Shown piece by piece: positions 1 to 10,537 of a stretch of DNA of 64,000 nucleotides; positions within the stretch are counted from its first letter, which is position 1; each line of letters opens with the position of its first letter. The stretch lies in the NCBI GenBank assembly GCA_024275575.1, contig JAJRYV010000009.1, positions 1-64,000 on the forward strand. Reading direction: 5' to 3'. Origin of the DNA: a bacterium. Its GTDB lineage: Bacteria > Zhuqueibacterota > Zhuqueibacteria > Zhuqueibacterales > Geothermadaptataceae. Both the position numbers and the translations under genes were made by a program. The notes under the pieces were generated by a model. That model had not been told where the DNA came from and searched no databases. It was given only the letters and a program-made list of their open reading frames with translations.

Positions 1-235
1 AACACGACCTTGACGACAAGCCATGATTTTGTGCTCACAGGTTTGCAATCAGATTCCCAATATTTCTATCGTGTGCGTTCAAAAGATGCAGTGGGCAATG
101 CAGTGCTTTCGGCGCTTTTGAATTTTCAGACACAGGCTGCGCCACCACCGGACACTACCGCGCCGGTGATATCCGCGGTGAGTGTTGCGAATATCAGCGC
201 CAGTTCGGCAGAGATTCAATGGCAGACGGATGAGG
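1..235 (+). repeat. Direct repeat copy 1 inside the giant surface protein gene
   Basis: This stretch matches 3151-3385 base for base without gaps; I count 15 mismatches in 235 positions (about 94% identity). It encodes the end of one Fn3 module, the PDTTAP linker and the start of the next, so it is a recent intragenic duplication or gene-converted module. The copy may extend upstream of the window. Confidence 0.95.
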
Positions 236-3200
236 TTGCCGACAGTCAGGTAGAATATGGCCTGACCGGCTCAAATGATGAGTTTTCGCTTTTGGATACA
301 CTATTATCCACCAGTCATAATGTACTATTGACTGGCCTGACTAAAGGTGAAACATATTTTTTTCGTGTAAAATCCCGTGATGTGGCTGGTAATTTGGCAA
401 TCGGGAATGATTCAACTTTTACATTATTAAATGCAAATCCTCTGTCGTTTACAAATATCACCGATTTTGCCGGAACCGCGGGCCCTGGCGGGCAGGTTAC
501 TAACGGCGGGCATGCTGCGGTTTGGGCAGATATCGATGGTAATGATTTCCCAGATTTATATATCACTTACCTTTACACGATGCCCATTGCCGATGTACTG
601 TTTATCAATCAGGGCGATACCACATTTATCGATGAAGCAGTGGAGCGCGGGGTCGATGATTTTGACGGTGGGTCGCACGGCGCTGTTTTTGCTGATTTGG
701 ACAACGATGGTGATTTCGATTTATTTAACGGCACCACCGACGGGGCCAGTGGTATTTCGGGGGGAAATAACCTTTTTCAAAACGATGGTCAGGGTTACTT
801 TAGTGATGTGAGCGATAGCGCCGGAATTCCCGACCAGGACTGGGAAACCCGGAGTGTGGTGGCTTTTGATTGGGATAATGACGGCGATCTCGATCTGCTT
901 TGCGTCAATAATTATCAGGGGACCAACGATCCTGCCGACGAGCTCAACGAATTGTTGCGCAATGATGGTGGAATGAAATTTACGCCCATCCTCACCGGCG
1001 CACTTGCAACCGCACCGATGGGGCAGGGGGCGCTCGCCACAGATTTCGATGCAGATGGTGATATTGATTTAATCGCTGCTAATCGTACCGGTCCGGTCAA
1101 TATTCTTGAAAATGATGGCAACGGCGTCTTTACACTGGTCTCCCCTGATTCCATCGGCATCCAACATCAGGCGCAAGATGGCGTTAGCAGTGCAGATGTT
1201 GATAATGATGGTGATATGGATCTATTACTTACCAGTGATAATCAGGGTGAGCTTTATCTAAACCTTGGGGGAGGGACTTTTTCTCATGGACAAAGCTTTT
1301 TAAATACAGATGGTTATATGGGCGCGTTCGCTGATTTTGATAATGATGGTGATCTCGATTTGGTCTATGCCGGAGATGATATCTCTTATCTCAATGACGG
1401 CACCGGCGCTTTCACAGCGGGGCCGGCCGTACCGGTGCCCGGAGTCAGTGATCCCCGGGCAATCGGCATTGCCGATTTTGACAATGATGGGGATGAAGAT
1501 TTTGCCATCGCTGCAAAACTCTCGGGCAATTATCTAATCCGCAACAACCTGGATGGCGGCAATCAGATCAAAATAAAACTGTTGTCGCCACAAAATCAAA
1601 TTGGTGCTTTTGGCGCCAAAATCAAAGTACGGGCACAGGGCACACTGATCGCTTTTCGTGAAGCGCAGAGTGCTTTTGGCTACCTCGGACAGAATGATCC
1701 CACGCTTTCGATCGGTATAGGTGAGCACAATAGTGTCGATGTTGATGTGGAATTTCCCGACGGAACATCCATGCGACGAAGCAATCTGGCAGCCGGCAGC
1801 ATCACTTTTTTTGATGGCGTTGCTGCCGACACCATTTTTCCGGCCATCTCGCTGGTTGGGAGCAGCGAAATATCGGCTGATGCCGCGACCATCACCTGGC
1901 AGACTGATGAAATATCAACTTCGCAAGTGCAATTTGGCACAGATGTAAACTATGGTACAAGCACTGGCGAAACAGCAGTTTATCTTACCGAACATTTCCT
2001 CCGACTCACCGGTTTGAGTGCAGAGACCACTTATCATTTCAAAGTTTTATCCCGTGATAAGGCCGGCAATGTTGCTGAGCGGGGTGATTTTATTTTTTCA
2101 ACGTTGACGCTATCGCAAACACCACCACTAATTTCCTCAGTACAAGTCGATTCGATAACGCAGAATTCGGCACAAATTCATTGGCAAACCGACGTTGTGG
2201 CTGATTCGAAAGTAGCGTATGGCGAGAGTGATTCCCTTGGCCGGATGACATCGTTGCAAACCAACCTAGTTACCAACCACACGGTTTCCCTGAGCGGGCT
2301 GGCCGCCAATACGCAATATTATTATAAAGTCATTTCAAAAGGCAGCAACGGACAGACTGCGGAGTCGGTTATTTTTACATTTAAAACAATGATGGGCCCC
2401 TTGCTCTCCGATGATTTTGCCGGTAATAGCCTCGATCTTGCAAAATGGAAAAAAGGCGACAATAGCGGCAATGGGGCTGTAGTTGAAAATGGCGCTTTGC
2501 ACCTGCGCTCACAAAGCGGTACAGGCGGCTGGATTTATACGACCGATCGATTTCCACTTGCCAATACCGTTGCCAAAATAAAAGTTATCCAGCCAAACGG
2601 AGATGGGGTGATCGGCTTGTCTCCCACGGTACAGGCGAATTCAGGAAGTGGATTTTACGACGAGCCGAATCGCTATCGTTTTTATGTTTATTTCTCCGGC
2701 AGTGGCGGGCCGACGAAACTTTATATCCAATGGCGTAAAAATAGCCAGGTTGGTGGTTTGGATGTTGCCCGGGGTGTTGTTTTTAACAATAATTTTTTCC
2801 TGCGCATACGTATGGACTCGACAAATATTTACTTCGAATATTCATTTAATGATGTCGATTGGAGCACCGCTTACAGCGAAATTTTTGATTTGCCGGGTTA
2901 TAGTCTCGCCGATTCCTCTTTTTATGAGTTATCAGCCTATAATACCCCGGTGAAAGGTGAACTGGTGCTCGATGATTTTTCCTTGACACGAGCTGCAGAG
3001 CCGATGCTGGACGGCACCCCGCCGATACTTTCCAGTGTTTCCGCAGCCGCAGGTGTGGATACGACAGCGATCAGTTGGACGACGGACGAGATCGCCGACG
3101 GCCAGGTGGAATATGGCCTGACGGATACGCTGGGATCGAGCAGTGATTTGAACACGAGCTTGACGACAAACCATAATTTTGTGCTCACAGGTTTGCAATC

Positions 3201-6200
3201 AGAGTCACAATATTTCTATCGTGTGCGTTCAAAAGATGCTGCGGGCAATGCGGCGCTTTCGGCGCTTTTGAATTTTCAGACCCAGGCTGCGCCACCGCCG
3301 GACACCACCGCGCCGGTGATATCTGCAGTGAGTGCTGCGAATATCAGCGCCAGTTCGGCAGAGATTCAATGGCAGACGGATGAGGCGTCGGATTCACAGG
3401 TAGAATATGGCCAGAGCGCCGCGCTGGGCAATTTTACTCCGCTGCAAACGATGCCGGTTATGAGCCACACAGTGACGCTTTCGGCTTTGCAAGCGGATAC
3501 GCAGTATTTTTACAAAGTCTATTCAAAAGATGCTGCGGGCAATACGGCGGTCTCGACGGTTGATTCATTTTCCACCAATGCCGCCGTCATCAATCCGGGG
3601 CCGATTCAGTTTACCGATATTTCGAGCCAATCCGGCGCTGAAACGCCTGCCGGGCCACAGGGTTTTGGCCATGGTGTTGCCGGTGCGGATTATAATAATG
3701 ATGGTTTCATCGATATCATCGTTTCCAATTACGATACTTCAAATGCACTGCTCATTAACAATCAGGATGGCACGTTCACTGACCGGGCGGCTTCCTGGAA
3801 TGTGCTCGGCGGCATGAATTGGTTCGACCGCGGTATCTCGGCTGCTGATTACAATAATGATGGTTTCGCTGATTTTTACCTCAATATTGCCGGTAGCAGT
3901 AAACTCTATAAAAACTCCGGTTCATCCTCATTTAATGAGGTCACCGGCAGCAGCGGTATTTATGATTCCGGACAGGCGCAGGCAGCGCTGTGGGGTGATT
4001 TCAGTAACGACGGTTTACTGGATTTACTGTCGCTAAATTATAACAACCCCTTACGTCTGTTTGTGCAAAACAGCAATTATACGTTCACTGACCGGACGAG
4101 TGAATATGGATTGAGCAATAAAAATTATAACGTTAGCGGGGTCGTATTTGATATCGAAGGCGACGGTGATATGGATATTTTCATTTCACGCGGTGAAACC
4201 TATGCTAATCTGCTGTTCGTGAACAATGGCAGCAATTATTTTTATGATCAGGCCAGCCAGCGCGGCGTTGCATTGCCGGATCGCCACGGCCAGGGTGTCA
4301 CTGTTGGTGATTTCGATAATGATGGCGATCTCGATCTGTTTTTCTGCAGTGATATCAACAGCAATAAATTGTTGCGCAACGATGGCAGTGGTTATTTTTC
4401 CGACTACACTGTCACGGCGGGACTCGCCGATAACAGCCGCTCCACCGGCTGTAATTTTGCTGATTTCAATAATGATGGCTGGCTCGATCTATACGTGATC
4501 AACTTTGGCGAAGCAAACCGCATTTACCAAAATGACTGCGACGGCACCTTTACCTGGGAAAACAATACCGGCGCTGAAAGCCGTCGCAATGGATATGGTT
4601 CCTGCCTCACAGATTTTGACAAGGATGGGGATATCGATATTTTTATCTCCAATTCCGGCGCCAAAAGCCAGTTGTTTGATAATGGCGCCGGAGCAACATA
4701 CTGGCTTGAGTTTAACTTGCAGGGCAAGAGTAGCAACGCCGGCGGCATCGGGGCAGTTATCGATTTTTATTTCAACAAAAAACAGCAACGACGGGTGATG
4801 CTCGCCGGTGAAGGATTCGTTTCCGGCAACCTTACACCGCTGCATTTCGGCCTGGGTTCAGTTGATTTTGCCGACAGCGTTGTTATCAACTGGCCTGCCG
4901 GAGGAAAATCCTTGCTGGATTTGCCGCTCGCCGGACAACGTATCACCGTTGTTGAAGGGCAAATGCCAGTTTACAACAGAAAATCAGAAGCAGATACGAC
5001 TGCGCCGGTTATCACAAATGTTATCGCTGCAAATATCCAGGCGACGACGGCAAATATCTCGTGGAATACGGATGAACCGGCCGATGGACAGGTGGAATAC
5101 GGACTCACCGACACATTGGGCATGAGTTCGAACTTAAACACAAACCTGGCAACAAACCACAGCATTGATCTGACTGGACTGCAGGCCGATTCAACGTATT
5201 ATTATCGTGTGCGTTCGAAAGATGCAGCCGGCAATGAACGTTTTTCTGGGGTTTATAATTTCACCACCTCATCAGCAGGGCCGGTGATCTTGTTTGCCGA
5301 TGCTTTTGATGGCGGTTCGCTCGATAGCGAGAAGTGGCACAAAGGCGCCAATGCTCATAATTATTCACAGGTGAACAATGGAGCGCTGGAGTTGATTTCC
5401 GATAACAACGAAACCGGCTGGGTGGTCACACAGCAGAAATTCGTTGCCCGGAATACGGAAGTCATCGTTAGAATCAGACAACCCAATGGGGATGGCGATG
5501 TGGCCATTTGTCCGACATTTATGCCTGATGCTGTCGCCGGTATTTATAACGAAGCCAACTGGTACCGTTTTTTTACTTATCAATCCGGCGGCAGCAATTA
5601 TCTGCTCTATGTGCAGTGGCGGCGCGATGGCGCAGTGAGCGGTCTCGACGTCACCGGCGGGCTCACCATCACCGGTGAAATCTGGCTGCGCATGCGCATG
5701 GATACGACGAAAATTTATTTCGACGCCTCGTTCGACGGCCAGGTTTGGACGGAAACCTATTCAGAGGTTTTCTCGCTTGGCAATTATACTTTGCAGGACC
5801 AGTTTCATTACGCTTTGGAGGCAGCGAAAACCGATATCCGCGGCGATTTAATCATCGATGAATTTGAAATTCGCGACCTCACTTCACAGGAGGCGTTGAA
5901 GCCGGTTGTGACGAAAAAAGGAGGGGATCTGGCAGGCGAGATCAGGCTGCCGCTGGAATTTGCCCTGTCGCAAAATTATCCAAACCCGTTCAATCCGGAA
6001 ACGAAAATGGATCTGTTAATATCGCAAACCGCTGCCGTGACGGCGATAATTTATAATATCCATGCACAGGAAATCACAAAAATATATTCGGCGATTGCCG
6101 GGCCGGGTAAATTAACCCTGCACTGGAACGGCCGCAATCATGCCGGGAATCTCATGCCCAGCGGTATTTATATCGTCCGTGTTCAGGCGCAGGCTGAATC

Positions 6201-6246
6201 CGGCAAGCGCTTTATGGCCGTGCGCAGACTGGTTCTGATCAAATAA
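1..6246 (+). CDS. Giant modular secreted protein, 5' end outside window (Fn3, VCBS/FG-GAP, UnbV, LamG-like, sorting domain)
   Basis: The frame is open from base 1, so the N-terminus lies upstream; the TTG at 10 sits inside an Fn3 domain and is not a start. By position I read Fn3 modules (about 1-430), a VCBS/FG-GAP propeller rich in DNDGD calcium loops (450-1560), an UnbV/ASPIC-type module (1560-1800), two Fn3 modules (1840-2385), a LamG-like jelly roll (2400-2990), two Fn3 modules (3010-3590), a second propeller (3600-4680) and UnbV module (4690-4950), Fn3 (5000-5270), a second LamG-like module (5280-5880), and the C-terminal QNYPNPFNPET/FlgD-like sorting region (5950-6246). It is probably exported and held on or released from the cell surface. 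These folds suggest adhesion or carbohydrate binding; no catalytic domain is visible. It converges on the chemoreceptor gene with a 22-base gap. Confidence 0.9.
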   Translation, partial: NTTLTTSHDFVLTGLQSDSQYFYRVRSKDAVGNAVLSALLNFQTQAAPPPDTTAPVISAVSVANISASSAEIQWQTDEVADSQVEYGLTGSNDEFSLLDTLLSTSHNVLLTGLTKGETYFFRVKSRDVAGNLAIGNDSTFTLLNANPLSFTNITDFAGTAGPGGQVTNGGHAAVWADIDGNDFPDLYITYLYTMPIADVLFINQGDTTFIDEAVERGVDDFDGGSHGAVFADLDNDGDFDLFNGTTDGASGISGGNNLFQNDGQGYFSDVSDSAGIPDQDWETRSVVAFDWDNDGDLDLLCVNNYQGTNDPADELNELLRNDGGMKFTPILTGALATAPMGQGALATDFDADGDIDLIAANRTGPVNILENDGNGVFTLVSPDSIGIQHQAQDGVSSADVDNDGDMDLLLTSDNQGELYLNLGGGTFSHGQSFLNTDGYMGAFADFDNDGDLDLVYAGDDISYLNDGTGAFTAGPAVPVPGVSDPRAIGIADFDNDGDEDFAIAAKLSGNYLIRNNLDGGNQIKIKLLSPQNQIGAFGAKIKVRAQGTLIAFREAQSAFGYLGQNDPTLSIGIGEHNSVDVDVEFPDGTSMRRSNLAAGSITFFDGVAADTIFPAISLVGSSEISADAATITWQTDEISTSQVQFGTDVNYGTSTGETAVYLTEHFLRLTGLSAETTYHFKVLSRDKAGNVAERGDFIFSTLTLSQTPPLISSVQVDSITQNSAQIHWQTDVVADSKVAYGESDSLGRMTSLQTNLVTNHTVSLSGLAANTQYYYKVISKGSNGQTAESVIFTFKTMMGPLLSDDFAGNSLDLAKWKKGDNSGNGAVVENGALHLRSQSGTGGWIYTTDRFPLANTVAKIKVIQPNGDGVIGLSPTVQANSGSGFYDEPNRYRFYVYFSGSGGPTKLYIQWRKNSQVGGLDVARGVVFNNNFFLRIRMDSTNIYFEYSFNDVDWSTAYSEIFDLPGYSLADSSFYELSAYNTPVKGELVLDDFSLTRAAEPMLDGTPPILSSVSAAAGVDTTAISWTTDEIADGQVEYGLTDTLGSSSDLNTSLTTNHNFVLTGLQSESQYFYRVRSKDAAGNAALSALLNFQTQAAPPPDTTAPVISAVSAANISASSAEIQWQTDEASDSQVEYGQSAALGNFTPLQTMPVMSHTVTLSALQADTQYFYKVYSKDAAGNTAVSTVDSFSTNAAVINPGPIQFTDISSQSGAETPAGPQGFGHGVAGADYNNDGFIDIIVSNYDTSNALLINNQDGTFTDRAASWNVLGGMNWFDRGISAADYNNDGFADFYLNIAGSSKLYKNSGSSSFNEVTGSSGIYDSGQAQAALWGDFSNDGLLDLLSLNYNNPLRLFVQNSNYTFTDRTSEYGLSNKNYNVSGVVFDIEGDGDMDIFISRGETYANLLFVNNGSNYFYDQASQRGVALPDRHGQGVTVGDFDNDGDLDLFFCSDINSNKLLRNDGSGYFSDYTVTAGLADNSRSTGCNFADFNNDGWLDLYVINFGEANRIYQNDCDGTFTWENNTGAESRRNGYGSCLTDFDKDGDIDIFISNSGAKSQLFDNGAGATYWLEFNLQGKSSNAGGIGAVIDFYFNKKQQRRVMLAGEGFVSGNLTPLHFGLGSVDFADSVVINWPAGGKSLLDLPLAGQRITVVEGQMPVYNRKSEADTTAPVITNVIAANIQATTANISWNTDEPADGQVEYGLTDTLGMSSNLNTNLATNHSIDLTGLQADSTYYYRVRSKDAAGNERFSGVYNFTTSSAGPVILFADAFDGGSLDSEKWHKGANAHNYSQVNNGALELISDNNETGWVVTQQKFVARNTEVIVRIRQPNGDGDVAICPTFMPDAVAGIYNEANWYRFFTYQSGGSNYLLYVQWRRDGAVSGLDVTGGLTITGEIWLRMRMDTTKIYFDASFDGQVWTETYSEVFSLGNYTLQDQFHYALEAAKTDIRGDLIIDEFEIRDLTSQEALKPVVTKKGGDLAGEIRLPLEFALSQNYPNPFNPETKMDLLISQTAAVTAIIYNIHAQEITKIYSAIAGPGKLTLHWNGRNHAGNLMPSGIYIVRVQAQAESGKRFMAVRRLVLIK
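3151..3385 (+). repeat. Direct repeat copy 2 inside the giant surface protein gene
   Basis: Second copy of the repeat at 1-235, offset by exactly 3150 bases and in the same reading frame. Identity falls off after the shared segment (TGAGG at 3381-3385), where the second Fn3 module diverges. Confidence 0.95.
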
Positions 6247-6268
6247 GGTCTGAATACACCGGGGTAAA

Positions 6269-8476
6269 CTAATCGACAACGGTAGTTGAATGTTCCAGGA
6301 CAGGAGAATAGCTTTGTTCATTCTCAGTCTTCTGCGCTTCCAGCCGAAACTTTTTGAGCGATGTGAGAAGTGAATCGGTTAATTCATAGAGAGATTTCGC
6401 CTCGGTTGCGATGGTATTTATTGCAGAAGCCTGAACTTGCGTCGTTTCACTGATACTATTGATGTTTTGCGAGATTTCGTTGCTGACCGAGGATTGCTCT
6501 TCTCCGGCAGCATTGACTTGCATGATAAGTTCTGTACTCCGTGACGATGATTCACGGATATCTTCCAAAGATTTGCCGGCCCGTGTAAAGGCGTCCTCCT
6601 GTTTGATAATATCTGAAGAAACCTGCTCCATCGATTTGACAACGTGGTTAGTCACATTCTGGTTATCTTTAATATTATTCGTTATCTCCCGGATGGAAGA
6701 GCTCGTTCTTTCAGCCAGCTTTCTTACTTCATCTGCGACGACGGCAAATCCGCGGCCTTGTTCTCCGGCGCGAGCTGCCTCGATTGCAGCATTTAATGCA
6801 AGCAGGTTTGTCTGATCTGCAATCTCGTTAATTACTTCGGTGATCTCGCCAATTTTTTCGCTGCTTCTGCTCAATTCTTTCACCTCATTCGCCGAATCTT
6901 TGACGGTCGAGGAAAGCTTTTTAAAACCCTCTACGGCTTGCTCCATGAACTCACTGCCTTCCCGGGCAATTTCTCCCGATTGTTCAGCCATTTCGTTTGC
7001 GTATGCAAGATTTTTCGAGTTTTCAGAAATGGTTTGCGTCATTTCAGACATCGCAGTGGCAACTTCCATTGTGCGTTGAGCCTGTTCACCGGAACCCTGG
7101 GCGATCTGCTCGCTCTTCGAGTTTATTATCGTGCCGATCTCTGCAGTCTGGTTGGCATTGCGAATCACTTGTGTGATCATCGTTCTGATATGTTTAACGG
7201 CTCTATTAAATCCATCGTACAATTTTTTGATTGAATCATCTCTCTCCGATGACAGGGAAACACTAAGGTCTCCATTGGCAAATTTTTGCATTGTCACAAG
7301 CATCTTTTCTACACTTTGATCGAGATAATCGTTTTGTTTCGTGGCTATTTTTTGTGCGCTTTCAGCGACCAGCGCCGCTTGTTCTGCCGCGAGACGGTTC
7401 TTCTCAGCATCGCTGATGGCTTGATTAATGCTGTCCACCATCGTATTGAAAGCCTCGCACAATTGACCGGTCTCATCGGAACTTGTCACTTCGATTTTAT
7501 AGTCCAGGTCTCCATCGGTTATGTGTTTTGATGCAGAAACCAGCTCCCTTATGGGGTTGGAAATAAATCTGGCGACGAGGCGCAGAACGATCAGCGCGAA
7601 ACCGAGAGCCGCGATGATGATATAAATCGTCACCCAAAAGAGATGGTACAAAACTGCAAAAACATCATGTTCCAGTGCTCCCAAAACGACCTCCACATCG
7701 ATAGAAGCAACCGTTACTTTTTCCAGTTTCCAGCCGTCGAGGCTGGTGGCGATAAAAGCATCCCTTTTTTGTTTACTGTCAAAAGCAGAACTGATGAGAA
7801 TTCTCCTGTCCGCAGTCGCGACGACGTAACTTATGGCCGTATTTTCAAATGAATTGAACGTTTTCGATAGAAAATCATCGATTGGTTGATAGATCCAGAG
7901 AATGCCGGCAATATTCGAATCGACAAAGATCGCCCCCGCCGAAAGCAAAACCCAACCGTCATTTTCATCATACACGATGTGATGCATGACCGTCACCGAT
8001 TCATGGACATTATCGCTGCCGCTATTCTTTTTCCGGACTAAAGCTGCCAGTTGATTCTGATAATTGTATCGATCATAGTGTTCAATCCGCTTCCCGGATT
8101 TGATCTGCAGGAACGGGTTGCCGTCAGCCGTGCCTGCTTACATCTTTATATACTGTGGATTTGGCCCGTAAATCCTGGTTAAAAAGGCTTCCAGAATCGC
8201 TTCAGCATTGGTCATGCCTTCCGAATCTTCAAATTCCCTCGAAAGAAAATAGTCTTCAAAAGCTTTGTGTGATCGAATAACCGCGATATCCTGTTCGGTT
8301 CGCTCCACCAGACTTTTGATGATATTGCTTTTTTCTTTTGCCGTCTCCAGCAACCGTTCAGTTATTCGTTGTTTCAGCTCATCCTGTACAATCGACTGGC
8401 TGATTAAGCTCTGGATGGCCAGAGCGATAAAAACGACGGTGATGCTGGCGAGTGTTATTTTGTTACCGATCTTCAT
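6269..8476 (-). pseudogene. Methyl-accepting chemotaxis protein interrupted by one in-frame TAA
   Basis: Two open frames, 8476-8138 and 8137-6269, are in the same frame and separated only by a TAA at 8140-8138 (minus strand). Reading through gives one chemoreceptor of about 735 codons: N-terminal membrane segment, dCache-like periplasmic sensor broken after NPQYIKM, a second membrane segment, HAMP ([10 protein letters not shown]), and a cytoplasmic signalling domain with the conserved hairpin (residues such as [15 protein letters not shown]). No C-terminal CheR-tethering pentapeptide is seen. The downstream piece could restart at the GTG at 7996 but would lack the first membrane segment. The gene lies 118 bases behind a binding-protein gene on the same strand. 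It may be a recent pseudogene, a readthrough case or a sequence error; the rest of the frame is intact. Confidence 0.88.
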
Positions 8477-8594
8477 ATTATTGGCTTTCCGGTACTATAA
8501 AAACTGTATTTCGATCAGGTTAGGCTGTTGCGTTCTGAAAGTGAGTTTCATATTGTAAAATGCTTTACGGGCAGTTTGATGCAATCCGGCACCC

Positions 8595-9500
8595 TTATTC
8601 TGCAGGGTAATTGAATTGTATGTTGTGTTTTTGCCACAAAGCATTTAAAGCTCGCCCCTCTTTCAGATTCACAGTGCCTTGCCCGGAGATGATTTTCTGT
8701 CCCTCGTCACTCAAAATAAAGGCAATAAAATCTTTCACCTCAGGCGTCTGGTTATGATTTACAGCGATATAAAGCGGACGGAATAGCGGATATTTCCCGG
8801 ATGCGATCAGGTTTTTCTCAGGTTCAATCCCATCGATGGTTAACACTTTTACCTCCGCTTTACGAGCAGAACTGATTCCGGTAACGCCCAGTGAAGTGGG
8901 CGTTCTGCTTATCTTTTTCTCCAAGGGCCCGCTCGATTTAAATTTGAGCGATTTGGCCTTAAAATTCTGCCCCATGTTCTTCGTGACCAACACGCGGAAC
9001 ATGTAGCCGACGCCAGATTTGCTGCCATGGCGGGTGCATAAAACGATGCGTTTATCCTGTGGATGTCCCAGGTCTTTCCAGGAATTGATTTCACCGGAAT
9101 AAACTTTCTTCAAATTCTCCAGCGAGATATTATTGACAGGATTGCTTTTACTGGTGATGACCACCAGTGCATCCCACGCCACCTGGACCAGCTTAACATA
9201 TTTTTCTTCAGGGTTTAATCGGCCGTTTATCGTCAATAAATGCCGACAGGTCCCGCCCATATCTGCGGTGCCGGCTGATGCTGCCCGGACACCTTTGGTG
9301 GCGCCGCCGCCACTCAAAATGATTGTTGTTCCTGTTTTTTTCGCATACTCTGAAGCTATTTCTTGCATGAAGGCCTTTTGGGTGATACCACAGCCTGTCC
9401 AGGTTAAACTCTTCTTTTGTGCGAAAGCCGCAAAAGGCGAGAAAATTATAACAGCAAAAGCGATAATCAATATTTGGGAGGTCGTTTTCCTCAAATTCAT
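8595..9500 (-). CDS. PstS-like periplasmic substrate-binding protein
   Basis: A 301-residue exported protein of the phosphate/tungstate-type periplasmic binding fold (PBP superfamily). The signal peptide ends at AFAQ; the mature start TWTGCGITQKAF, then LSGGGATKGVRA and GTADMGG, match the pattern of PstS-like proteins. I chose the ATG at 9500 because GGAG stands seven bases upstream and the hydrophobic signal then starts at once; the earlier ATG at 9539 would overlap the porin gene. It follows the porin gene by 20 bases, so they are probably one transcript. No ABC permease or ATPase gene is nearby, so it may deliver its ligand to a permease encoded elsewhere, or act as a ligand-presenting partner for the chemoreceptor downstream. 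The ligand is likely an oxyanion such as phosphate, by family only. Confidence 0.85.
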   Translation of the reverse strand: MNLRKTTSQILIIAFAVIIFSPFAAFAQKKSLTWTGCGITQKAFMQEIASEYAKKTGTTIILSGGGATKGVRAASAGTADMGGTCRHLLTINGRLNPEEKYVKLVQVAWDALVVITSKSNPVNNISLENLKKVYSGEINSWKDLGHPQDKRIVLCTRHGSKSGVGYMFRVLVTKNMGQNFKAKSLKFKSSGPLEKKISRTPTSLGVTGISSARKAEVKVLTIDGIEPEKNLIASGKYPLFRPLYIAVNHNQTPEVKDFIAFILSDEGQKIISGQGTVNLKEGRALNALWQKHNIQFNYPAE

Positions 9501-9520
9501 TTTACTCTCCATCTGGCTTT

Positions 9521-10537
9521 TTAGAATGTTACCTGACACAGGATCTGAATGGCATCCTTGCCTGTAACATCGGAATTGTTGAAGTTTATCTGTATTTTGG
9601 ACTGGTGCTGGTTCTGTGAATTAAAAAATATATTTAATCCAATAACAGTAATCGTCTGGTCACTTGCATCTTTTGCCACATCGAGTTTTTCGTATTTGAA
9701 GGTCGGCTCAAATTTTCCATTGAGCAGGTAACCCACGCCGAGCCAAAAATCGCTGCCGTCCTGCGCTTCACTGTTGCCGTCGCCGCGGGACATGAATTCT
9801 CCTTTAATCCACAGCTTGTCAAACTGTGCTTTAGCCCCGGCGCCAAAAATATTCACATTTTCCTGCCCGGAAATACTGGTCATCGCGCTGCCGAAATAGG
9901 CTTCGGCATAAATGTTTTTTACCGGTCGCGCGTGAATTCTACCGGCAAAACTGTAATCCTGGCCTGCGCCCGCACTGCCGATATCGTTGGCTTTATTGGG
10001 CCCCGGATTAAAAATACCGAGATCAAACCCCATGTTCATTTGACCGAATTTATTGGCTCGAAGCATCGCACCGAGGTTTCTTTCAAATACCAGCGCCTGA
10101 CCCAGCCCGCGTTTGACAAAATCCAGCCCGGCTCCGGAGGTATTGAACTCAGTACCGATCGGTGTTTTAAATTTACCCACGCTGACAAGAAATTTCTGAT
10201 TCACCTTAAACTTTATTTCCGCATCTTTGATGATCCCCGGAGAATCACCGTCTTTGTCGACGTCGGCGCTTTGTTTATTAAAATCCACTTGCAGTTTAAA
10301 ACCGACGATTGGATTGACCTGCCCTTTGACGACCATCCTGACCCGGTCAAAACCGAAAAGGAAACCATCATTTTTTTCCTGCTTAGTCACAGTCGACTGA
10401 ATAAAGCCATGCATCGTGAAAGTTTTCTTCTGCCCAAAAATGCTGCTTGTAACGAAGAATATACTCAGATAGACGATTAAAGATATCCGCCCCTTTTTTA
10501 GATTTGAGTTGATTTTTTTTTCTGATGAATTCATCAT
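9521..10537 (-). CDS. Outer-membrane porin, phosphate-selective porin O/P type
   Basis: A 338-residue protein with an N-terminal signal peptide (ending near SSIFGQ) and alternating beta-strand pattern through to a terminal phenylalanine (CQVTF), the usual C-terminal signal of outer-membrane barrels. Segments such as FGFDRVRMVVKGQV, KDAEIKFKV and LVSVGKFKTPIG fit the OprO/OprP-like porin family. A purine-rich AAAGGGAAAG precedes the ATG pair at 10537. It heads the minus-strand cluster with the PstS-like protein and the chemoreceptor, which suggests uptake and sensing of the same anionic solute. The substrate cannot be read from sequence. Its promoter must lie in the 10538-10983 gap, shared divergently with the sialidase-like gene. 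Confidence 0.85.
   Translation of the reverse strand: MMNSSEKKINSNLKKGRISLIVYLSIFFVTSSIFGQKKTFTMHGFIQSTVTKQEKNDGFLFGFDRVRMVVKGQVNPIVGFKLQVDFNKQSADVDKDGDSPGIIKDAEIKFKVNQKFLVSVGKFKTPIGTEFNTSGAGLDFVKRGLGQALVFERNLGAMLRANKFGQMNMGFDLGIFNPGPNKANDIGSAGAGQDYSFAGRIHARPVKNIYAEAYFGSAMTSISGQENVNIFGAGAKAQFDKLWIKGEFMSRGDGNSEAQDGSDFWLGVGYLLNGKFEPTFKYEKLDVAKDASDQTITVIGLNIFFNSQNQHQSKIQINFNNSDVTGKDAIQILCQVTF

Follow-up and report, generated by a model that had tools for sequence, protein, structure and literature searches.

A PstS-like protein of a two-cysteine branch beside an interrupted chemoreceptor gene: a candidate ligand-capture and signalling pair

What does a PstS-like periplasmic binding protein do when its gene lies between those of a porin and a chemoreceptor? 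The question is raised by positions 6,269 to 10,537 of a 64,000-nucleotide stretch, hereafter the window, that forms the beginning of contig JAJRYV010000009.1 (C43 below) in the assembly GCA_024275575.1 of a bacterium of the Zhuqueibacterales (genome G000, 97.7% complete). Here three co-directional genes of the minus strand follow each other, in the order of transcription, as porin, PstS-like binding protein and methyl-accepting chemoreceptor (methyl-accepting chemotaxis protein, MCP). A first reading of the sequence, the original prediction, had taken all three as a self-contained sensing module. We argue that the PstS-like protein and the receptor form a dedicated ligand-capture and signalling pair, to which we assign a probability of about 0.65, and that this pair is the core of the locus, because pairing of such binding proteins with sensors is repeated in relatives and a pst-like transport locus exists elsewhere in the genome. 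The idea of a module thereby stands for the binding protein and the receptor, but the porin is optional, the receptor is broken in this genome and the arrangement is not found throughout the phylum.

The two-cysteine branch and its sensor partners

The binding protein of the window has the PBP_like_2/PstS fold both by Pfam (96.4 bits, cut-off 27) and by structure, as its AlphaFold model (pLDDT 94.1) found its best solved match in 4gd5, a phosphate-bound structure by its title, with Z 31.6 and an rmsd of 1.9 over 241 residues. The model TIGR02136 gave 147.4 bits, under its curated cut-off of 206.6. Relatives were scanned with one genome per species, yielding 113, of which 80 were kept, and the kept ones have in common the motifs WxGC or GC, GxCR and SGV-like. 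Every branch row retrieved by similarity has both cysteines, Cys37 and Cys85 of the window protein, apart from rows that lack this part of the sequence, namely L128, L130 and the rear pieces of L092 and L127. By contrast, 18 of 18 PstS rows from Calditrichota outside the branch have cysteine at neither column; these 18 comparison loci are a chosen subset of the matches, and L042 yielded no open reading frame (ORF) row. The branch formed a clade of its own, apart from seven transport-type PstS proteins (SH-aLRT 100), in a quick tree that comprised 57 rows. Three sequences had suggested that Cys155 is conserved as well, but this cysteine was found only in Calditrichota rows and was discarded. 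It may be added that seven loci of kept relatives gave no plus-strand binding-protein ORF (L071, L072, L078, L083, L084, L103 and L124), that L051 and L094 duplicate L031 and L032, and that a scan of Nitrospirota for the branch returned 27 matches, two of them repeating L053 and L057, 20 fetched and 5 not.

We examined the neighbours of the binding protein at 94 branch loci, the window locus excluded, 91 of which have a next gene; a sensor was counted there if it was co-directional and lay within 400 bases. These loci were picked by cysteine (or a gap) at both columns, so that cysteine counts on them hold partly by definition, and domains were assigned by custom profiles that were checked with Pfam on a subset. 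Among the genes that so follow the binding protein, 7 encode an MCP, 18 a histidine kinase and 4 a protein with HAMP or Cache alone, which makes 29 of 91. With MCP and kinase genes alone, the count is 25 of 91 for the binding protein and 24 of 662 for the other ORFs of these loci (Fisher p 3e-12, which is too small since the loci are related), and the comparison PstS loci of Calditrichota have a co-directional sensor gene next in 0 of 18 cases, one of them at the locus end. The gene of the binding protein overlaps that of the sensor by 4 bases in 10 of the 29 pairs. Pairs of a PstS-like protein with a membrane sensor recur in several phyla; an MCP is the next gene in the window, in the congener G001 and at L052, L057, L060, L061, L062 and L179, the order at L062 being CheW, binding protein, MCP. 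When the loci were divided by record titles and a word list, with the unspecific titles of L068, L116 and L119 counted as non-gamma, a sensor was next in 29 of the 41 loci not labelled Gammaproteobacteria.

Because the same kind of binding protein adjoins histidine kinases in relatives, it is, within the explanation proposed here, an input module with interchangeable outputs, MCP or kinase. On the tree the two kinds of partner alternate, with five changes by parsimony (L181 was labelled MCP though its MCP is the fourth gene on). HAMP starts at residue 164-191 in the partners at L057, L059 and L062, so binding proteins of the branch occur with sensory regions of different types. Judged by these neighbourhoods, the two-cysteine branch looks signalling-only outside Gammaproteobacteria, with outputs that would be swappable. 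As a separate observation, L183-L195 together with L129, 14 rows in all, form a clade within the branch (SH-aLRT 100); 11 of the 14 are followed by a histidine kinase gene, and in 7 cases the two genes overlap by 4 bases.

The receptor, its sensory region and its in-frame stop

Homologues of the window receptor's sensory domain occur in the MCPs and kinases at L051-L055 and L127. The model of this domain from the G001 orthologue (pLDDT 78.3) resembles dCache ligand domains with a Foldseek probability of 1.00, the TM score of 6ior_A being 0.52 by query and 0.66 by target; the window receptor gave no Pfam Cache match, and the relatives L056 and L153 match dCache_1 below the cut-off. Nine full-length copies of the domain were found, namely those of G000 and G001 among 82 Calditrichota genomes, six in 24 genomes that had been chosen for holding the binding protein, and one in G242, which was found besides G083 among 198 Nitrospirota genomes. 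Seven of the nine adjoin a binding protein. In Nitrospirota the branch (24 of 198 genomes at E up to 1e-60) is commoner than the window-type sensory domain, and most partners there must therefore have other sensory regions.

The receptor gene is not one open frame, as the original prediction overlooked an in-frame TAA at codon 113. In front of this stop remains a piece of 112 codons, and the ORF beyond it (6269-7996) lacks the first membrane helix. In G001 the orthologue is intact, with a sense codon at this site and 524 of 735 aligned positions identical to the window receptor. The full-length receptor that belongs to binding-protein-dependent chemoreceptor systems is thus absent as an open frame from the window genome and present as one in G001. 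Owing to this stop the receptor/binding-protein pair is probably non-functional here, a recent pseudogene, unless the TAA is an assembly or consensus error. A second chemoreceptor of the same genome (L196, C83:41500-47500) also has an in-frame TAA, in its signalling domain, and directly follows a Peripla_BP_6 binding-protein gene with no gene between (1731-4067 and 4225-5499 of L196, both minus strand). With two of nine MCPs interrupted, the genome may be undergoing decay of chemotaxis or may carry consensus errors. A third pair of this kind was seen at L199 (C102:3000-13000 of the same genome), where a short ABC_sub_bind-type gene (3297-3854, plus strand) stands directly before a chemoreceptor gene (3885-5741, plus strand).

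Several observations weigh against a dedicated pair, the first being the broken receptor gene itself. A sensor is next in 0 of the 53 loci labelled Gammaproteobacteria, 3 of which lie at contig ends, and a signalling gene occurs within four genes in 7 of these 53. Two of the nine copies of the sensory domain have no adjoining binding protein (L149 and L174). The first of them, in G092, stands beside CheA, with the binding protein elsewhere in the genome (L062); the second, in G242 (L174, 2317-6149, minus strand), otherwise matches L127 (1067-5756, plus strand) in its order of response regulator and kinase, without the binding-protein gene. Five of the seven paired copies come from the genomes preselected for the binding protein, and at L127 the binding-protein gene is split in two frames; taken with L174, a loss of this gene in progress is possible. 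The Cache domain could moreover bind a ligand of its own directly, and the five changes of output are not firm because the tree lacks support at 24 of its 54 inner branches.

The broken gene also invites the explanation that we deal here with mere neighbourhood, a decaying receptor pseudogene whose neighbours, the porin and the binding protein, by now have another use, and the second interrupted MCP on C83 agrees with it as the TAA does. We hold this to be unlikely, since the 622 codons beyond the TAA contain no further stop, the frames of the porin and the binding protein are both open, and the comparison of G000 with G001 indicates long-term constraint: the receptor has a dN of 0.20 at a dS of about 1.9, the binding protein a dN of 0.23 at a dS of about 2.7, both dS values being near saturation, and the porin a dN of 0.19 with no computable dS. 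The constraint and the open frames bear more on the origin of the pair than on its present state.

Pocket, porin and transport

If the binding protein captures a ligand for the receptor, its pocket should tell something of that ligand. When aligned by sequence, Cys37 falls on a Ser of 1twy, Cys85 on a Ser of both 1twy and 4q8r, and Val164 on the Thr of the SGT motif in both; these Ser and Thr positions of the phosphate binders, replaced in the window protein, are ones that we take, from E. coli PstS, to contact phosphate. With Ser, Ser and Thr thus exchanged for Cys37, Cys85 and Val164, the ligand is probably not phosphate and would be softer or reactive towards thiols. Most branch rows keep Arg157 and Ser162-Gly163, with mostly Ser at 157 in the Nitrospirota kinase clade, and this suggests that the protein still binds an anion. 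The conserved pair of cysteines, at positions of the cleft, might, on the other hand, form a switchable disulfide, and the receptor would then sense oxidants and not a captured solute. Such redox signalling appears improbable to us, because the cysteines replace residues that presumably touch the anion in phosphate binders, and because Arg157 and Ser162-Gly163 persist outside the Nitrospirota kinase clade. The lone binding protein lies near recurrent gene groups at L058, L066, L069, L086, L088, L089, L093, L095 and L119, and there are three such groups in some Gammaproteobacterial loci; at L058 the groups are CCG, FAD_binding_2 and CxxCxxCC proteins, which we take to be the Qmo/Hdr and APS-reductase genes of sulfur oxidisers. 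As a hint to the ligand these sulfur-type neighbours are suggestive only.

For the locus itself, the three minus-strand genes of the original prediction were borne out in coordinates and families (Table 1), with gaps of 20 bases between porin and binding protein and 118 bases between binding protein and receptor; the Pfam scores, each over its cut-off, were 51.6/20.9 bits for Porin_O_P, 80.5/25 for HAMP and 148.3/34.6 for MCPsignal. A scan for promoters and terminators stayed near chance (11 against 8.4 +/- 3.3 and 7 against 6.0 +/- 2.7), and neither intergenic gap held a minus-strand site in it, which is evidence neither for nor against cotranscription. Next to the three genes, at 10-6246 on the plus strand, lies a gene for a repetitive, secreted-looking protein of 2078 residues whose C-terminal tail resembles, by eye, a sorting signal.

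Table 1. Features of the porin, binding-protein and chemoreceptor locus in window coordinates
Feature	Position	Strand	Basis
Porin_O_P outer-membrane porin, 338 aa	9521-10537	-	Pfam PF07396
PstS-like periplasmic binding protein, 301 aa, two-cysteine branch, ATG start	8595-9500	-	PF12849
Binding-protein Cys37 codon, conserved in the branch, aligned with Ser of 1twy	9390-9392	-	
Binding-protein Cys85 codon (GxCR), conserved in the branch, aligned with Ser of 1twy, 4q8r and 4gd5	9246-9248	-	
Methyl-accepting chemoreceptor gene, 735 codons, interrupted	6269-8476	-	HAMP and MCPsignal; intact G001 orthologue
Receptor periplasmic sensory region, approximately residues 30-290; double-Cache-like in the modelled fold of the G001 copy	7607-8389	-	
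Receptor in-frame TAA, codon 113	8138-8140	-	Sense codon in G001
Receptor HAMP domain, residues 300-352	7421-7579	-	PF00672
Receptor MCP signalling domain	6443-6991	-	PF00015

In the congener G001 the three genes recur in unchanged order, the receptor frame being open, at identities of 71% for the porin, 67% for the binding protein and 69% for the receptor front. The flanks differ: four genes upstream of the G001 porin match G002, a genome whose contig ends about 50 bases past the porin and leaves the rest of its locus out of view, and none of five compared flanking genes of the window matches either genome. Gene order is thus conserved in the congener amid different flanks and not phylum-wide, as the binding-protein branch occurs at E < 1e-100 in 3 of the 82 Calditrichota genomes and the receptor sensory domain in 2; a triad conserved across Calditrichota was ruled out on these counts. 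Four further genomes of the phylum have weaker matches to the branch (1e-41 to 1e-44), and the three of them that were aligned (L035, L036 and L152, with G052 not among them) are without the cysteines. The porin/binding-protein/receptor unit holds in the genus, not in the phylum.

The porin, which the original prediction had made a regular part of the unit, is found by a custom profile at only 3 of the 94 relatives' loci, in the orientation of the binding protein and no more than three genes away from it (G001, G032 and the Acidobacteria record L105), which gives four known loci with the window. Its orthologue in G002 is 60% identical, and a more distant one in G036 44%; the model NF040900 of the selenite/tellurite porin ExtI gave 33.4 against a cut-off of 150. 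In G032 (L032, C228:28000-41517) the cluster runs DUF4388 (first gene unchecked), HAMP-only sensor, porin, binding protein, small GTPase and DUF4388-type proteins; the sensor there is a HAMP-only four-helix protein and the GTPase Arf/Ras-like, possibly a different output route. The related porin of G036 (L151, C26:234000-248000, 3510-9579) stands in the order MCP, porin, soluble Cache-like periplasmic protein, MCP, CheW, and the pst-like locus on contig C80 of the window genome is likewise ordered porin, PstS, permease. A porin with a periplasmic protein is therefore a recurring pairing in Calditrichota, and the porin is an addition and not a defining part; the unit of the window reads like the front end of a pst locus attached to a receptor.

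No match to the permease family BPD_transp_1 (PF00528) was found on C43, in keeping with the original prediction that the locus lacks an ABC permease (ABC ATPases were not searched with a model). The genome has nine permease matches on five other contigs, and among them is the locus on C80 with PstS, permeases and its own porin, so that the word orphan fits the window copy of PstS but not the genome. That the window protein is an accessory phosphate scavenger feeding this Pst transporter, with the receptor as an incidental neighbour, would suit its Pfam family and fold, the pst-type permeases on C80 and the similar arrangement of porin and PstS there, and is nevertheless the least probable explanation in view of the separate clade, the changed pocket positions and the repeated pairing with sensor genes, which overlap by 4 bases in 10 of 29 pairs. 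A chemotactic read-out is available, because the genome has nine MCP signalling-domain matches, six CheW-domain matches, three of them within two CheA-like proteins, as well as a che cluster with FlgB- and FliF-like genes after it.

Proposed route of the signal and comparison with known systems

We propose that the porin would admit an anion-sized ligand to the periplasm, where the PstS-like protein, of predicted fold, would bind it in the altered cleft of Cys37, Cys85 and Val164. The closed, loaded binding protein would dock on the double-Cache-like domain of the receptor, as the conserved pairing suggests, and the HAMP domain and MCP hairpin would alter CheA activity and steer the flagella in the manner standard for these families. 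More tentatively, and with more doubt than confidence, we suggest that the branch as a whole, found in at least seven phyla by record titles, mostly of metagenome-assembled genomes, may be a signalling-only branch of PstS whose pocket cysteines would make it a sensor of thiol-reactive or soft ligands (for example sulfur, arsenic or selenium species), with output to chemoreceptors or histidine kinases and, in Calditrichota, with an entry porin of its own. If true, proteins that general family models file as binding proteins of phosphate ABC transporters would gain a sensing role and a changed ligand. The interchangeable outputs make the docking face of the receptor testable, and a pocket with two cysteines suggests a specific experiment in biochemistry. 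In the open-licence literature, judged by title and abstract, we found no description of the two-cysteine branch or of a porin-PstS-MCP operon.

Trg, Tar, Tap and Tsr are four-helix-bundle receptors that use shared transport proteins and have no adjacent dedicated genes. They are named with their transport binding proteins in PMC4926252, and are like the proposed pair in the indirect recognition of a ligand by a chemoreceptor. The original prediction pointed to Tar, Trg and Tsr, but a closer precedent is CtpL of Pseudomonas aeruginosa, which according to that paper is activated by PstS itself, docking on the periplasmic domain of the MCP; the receptor domain is there described as not binding Pi itself, with a KD of 3.7 uM between PstS and the receptor domain (PMC4926252). 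There, as is proposed here, a PstS-type binding protein acts on an MCP. CtpL differs in that it uses the shared transport PstS of pstSCAB, whereas the window has a separate paralogue, encoded outside the transport locus and beside the receptor, in which pocket positions have changed. According to PMC9602780, action on receptors is known for solute-binding proteins of 13 families.

The cysteines may have a parallel in the AioX/ArxX/ArrX-AioS systems, in which, by PMC5908839, a signalling-only binding protein works with a membrane sensor kinase and AioX binds arsenite through a pocket Cys that is absent in its transport relative PhnD. The subfamily is a different one, as AioX is PhnD-like and the window protein PBP_like_2/PstS-like, with PBP_like_2 as its top family and no PhnD-type family among its five Pfam matches at E up to 0.1. 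The window protein would moreover have two such cysteines, placed at the cleft by sequence alignment, and the partners of its branch include MCPs.

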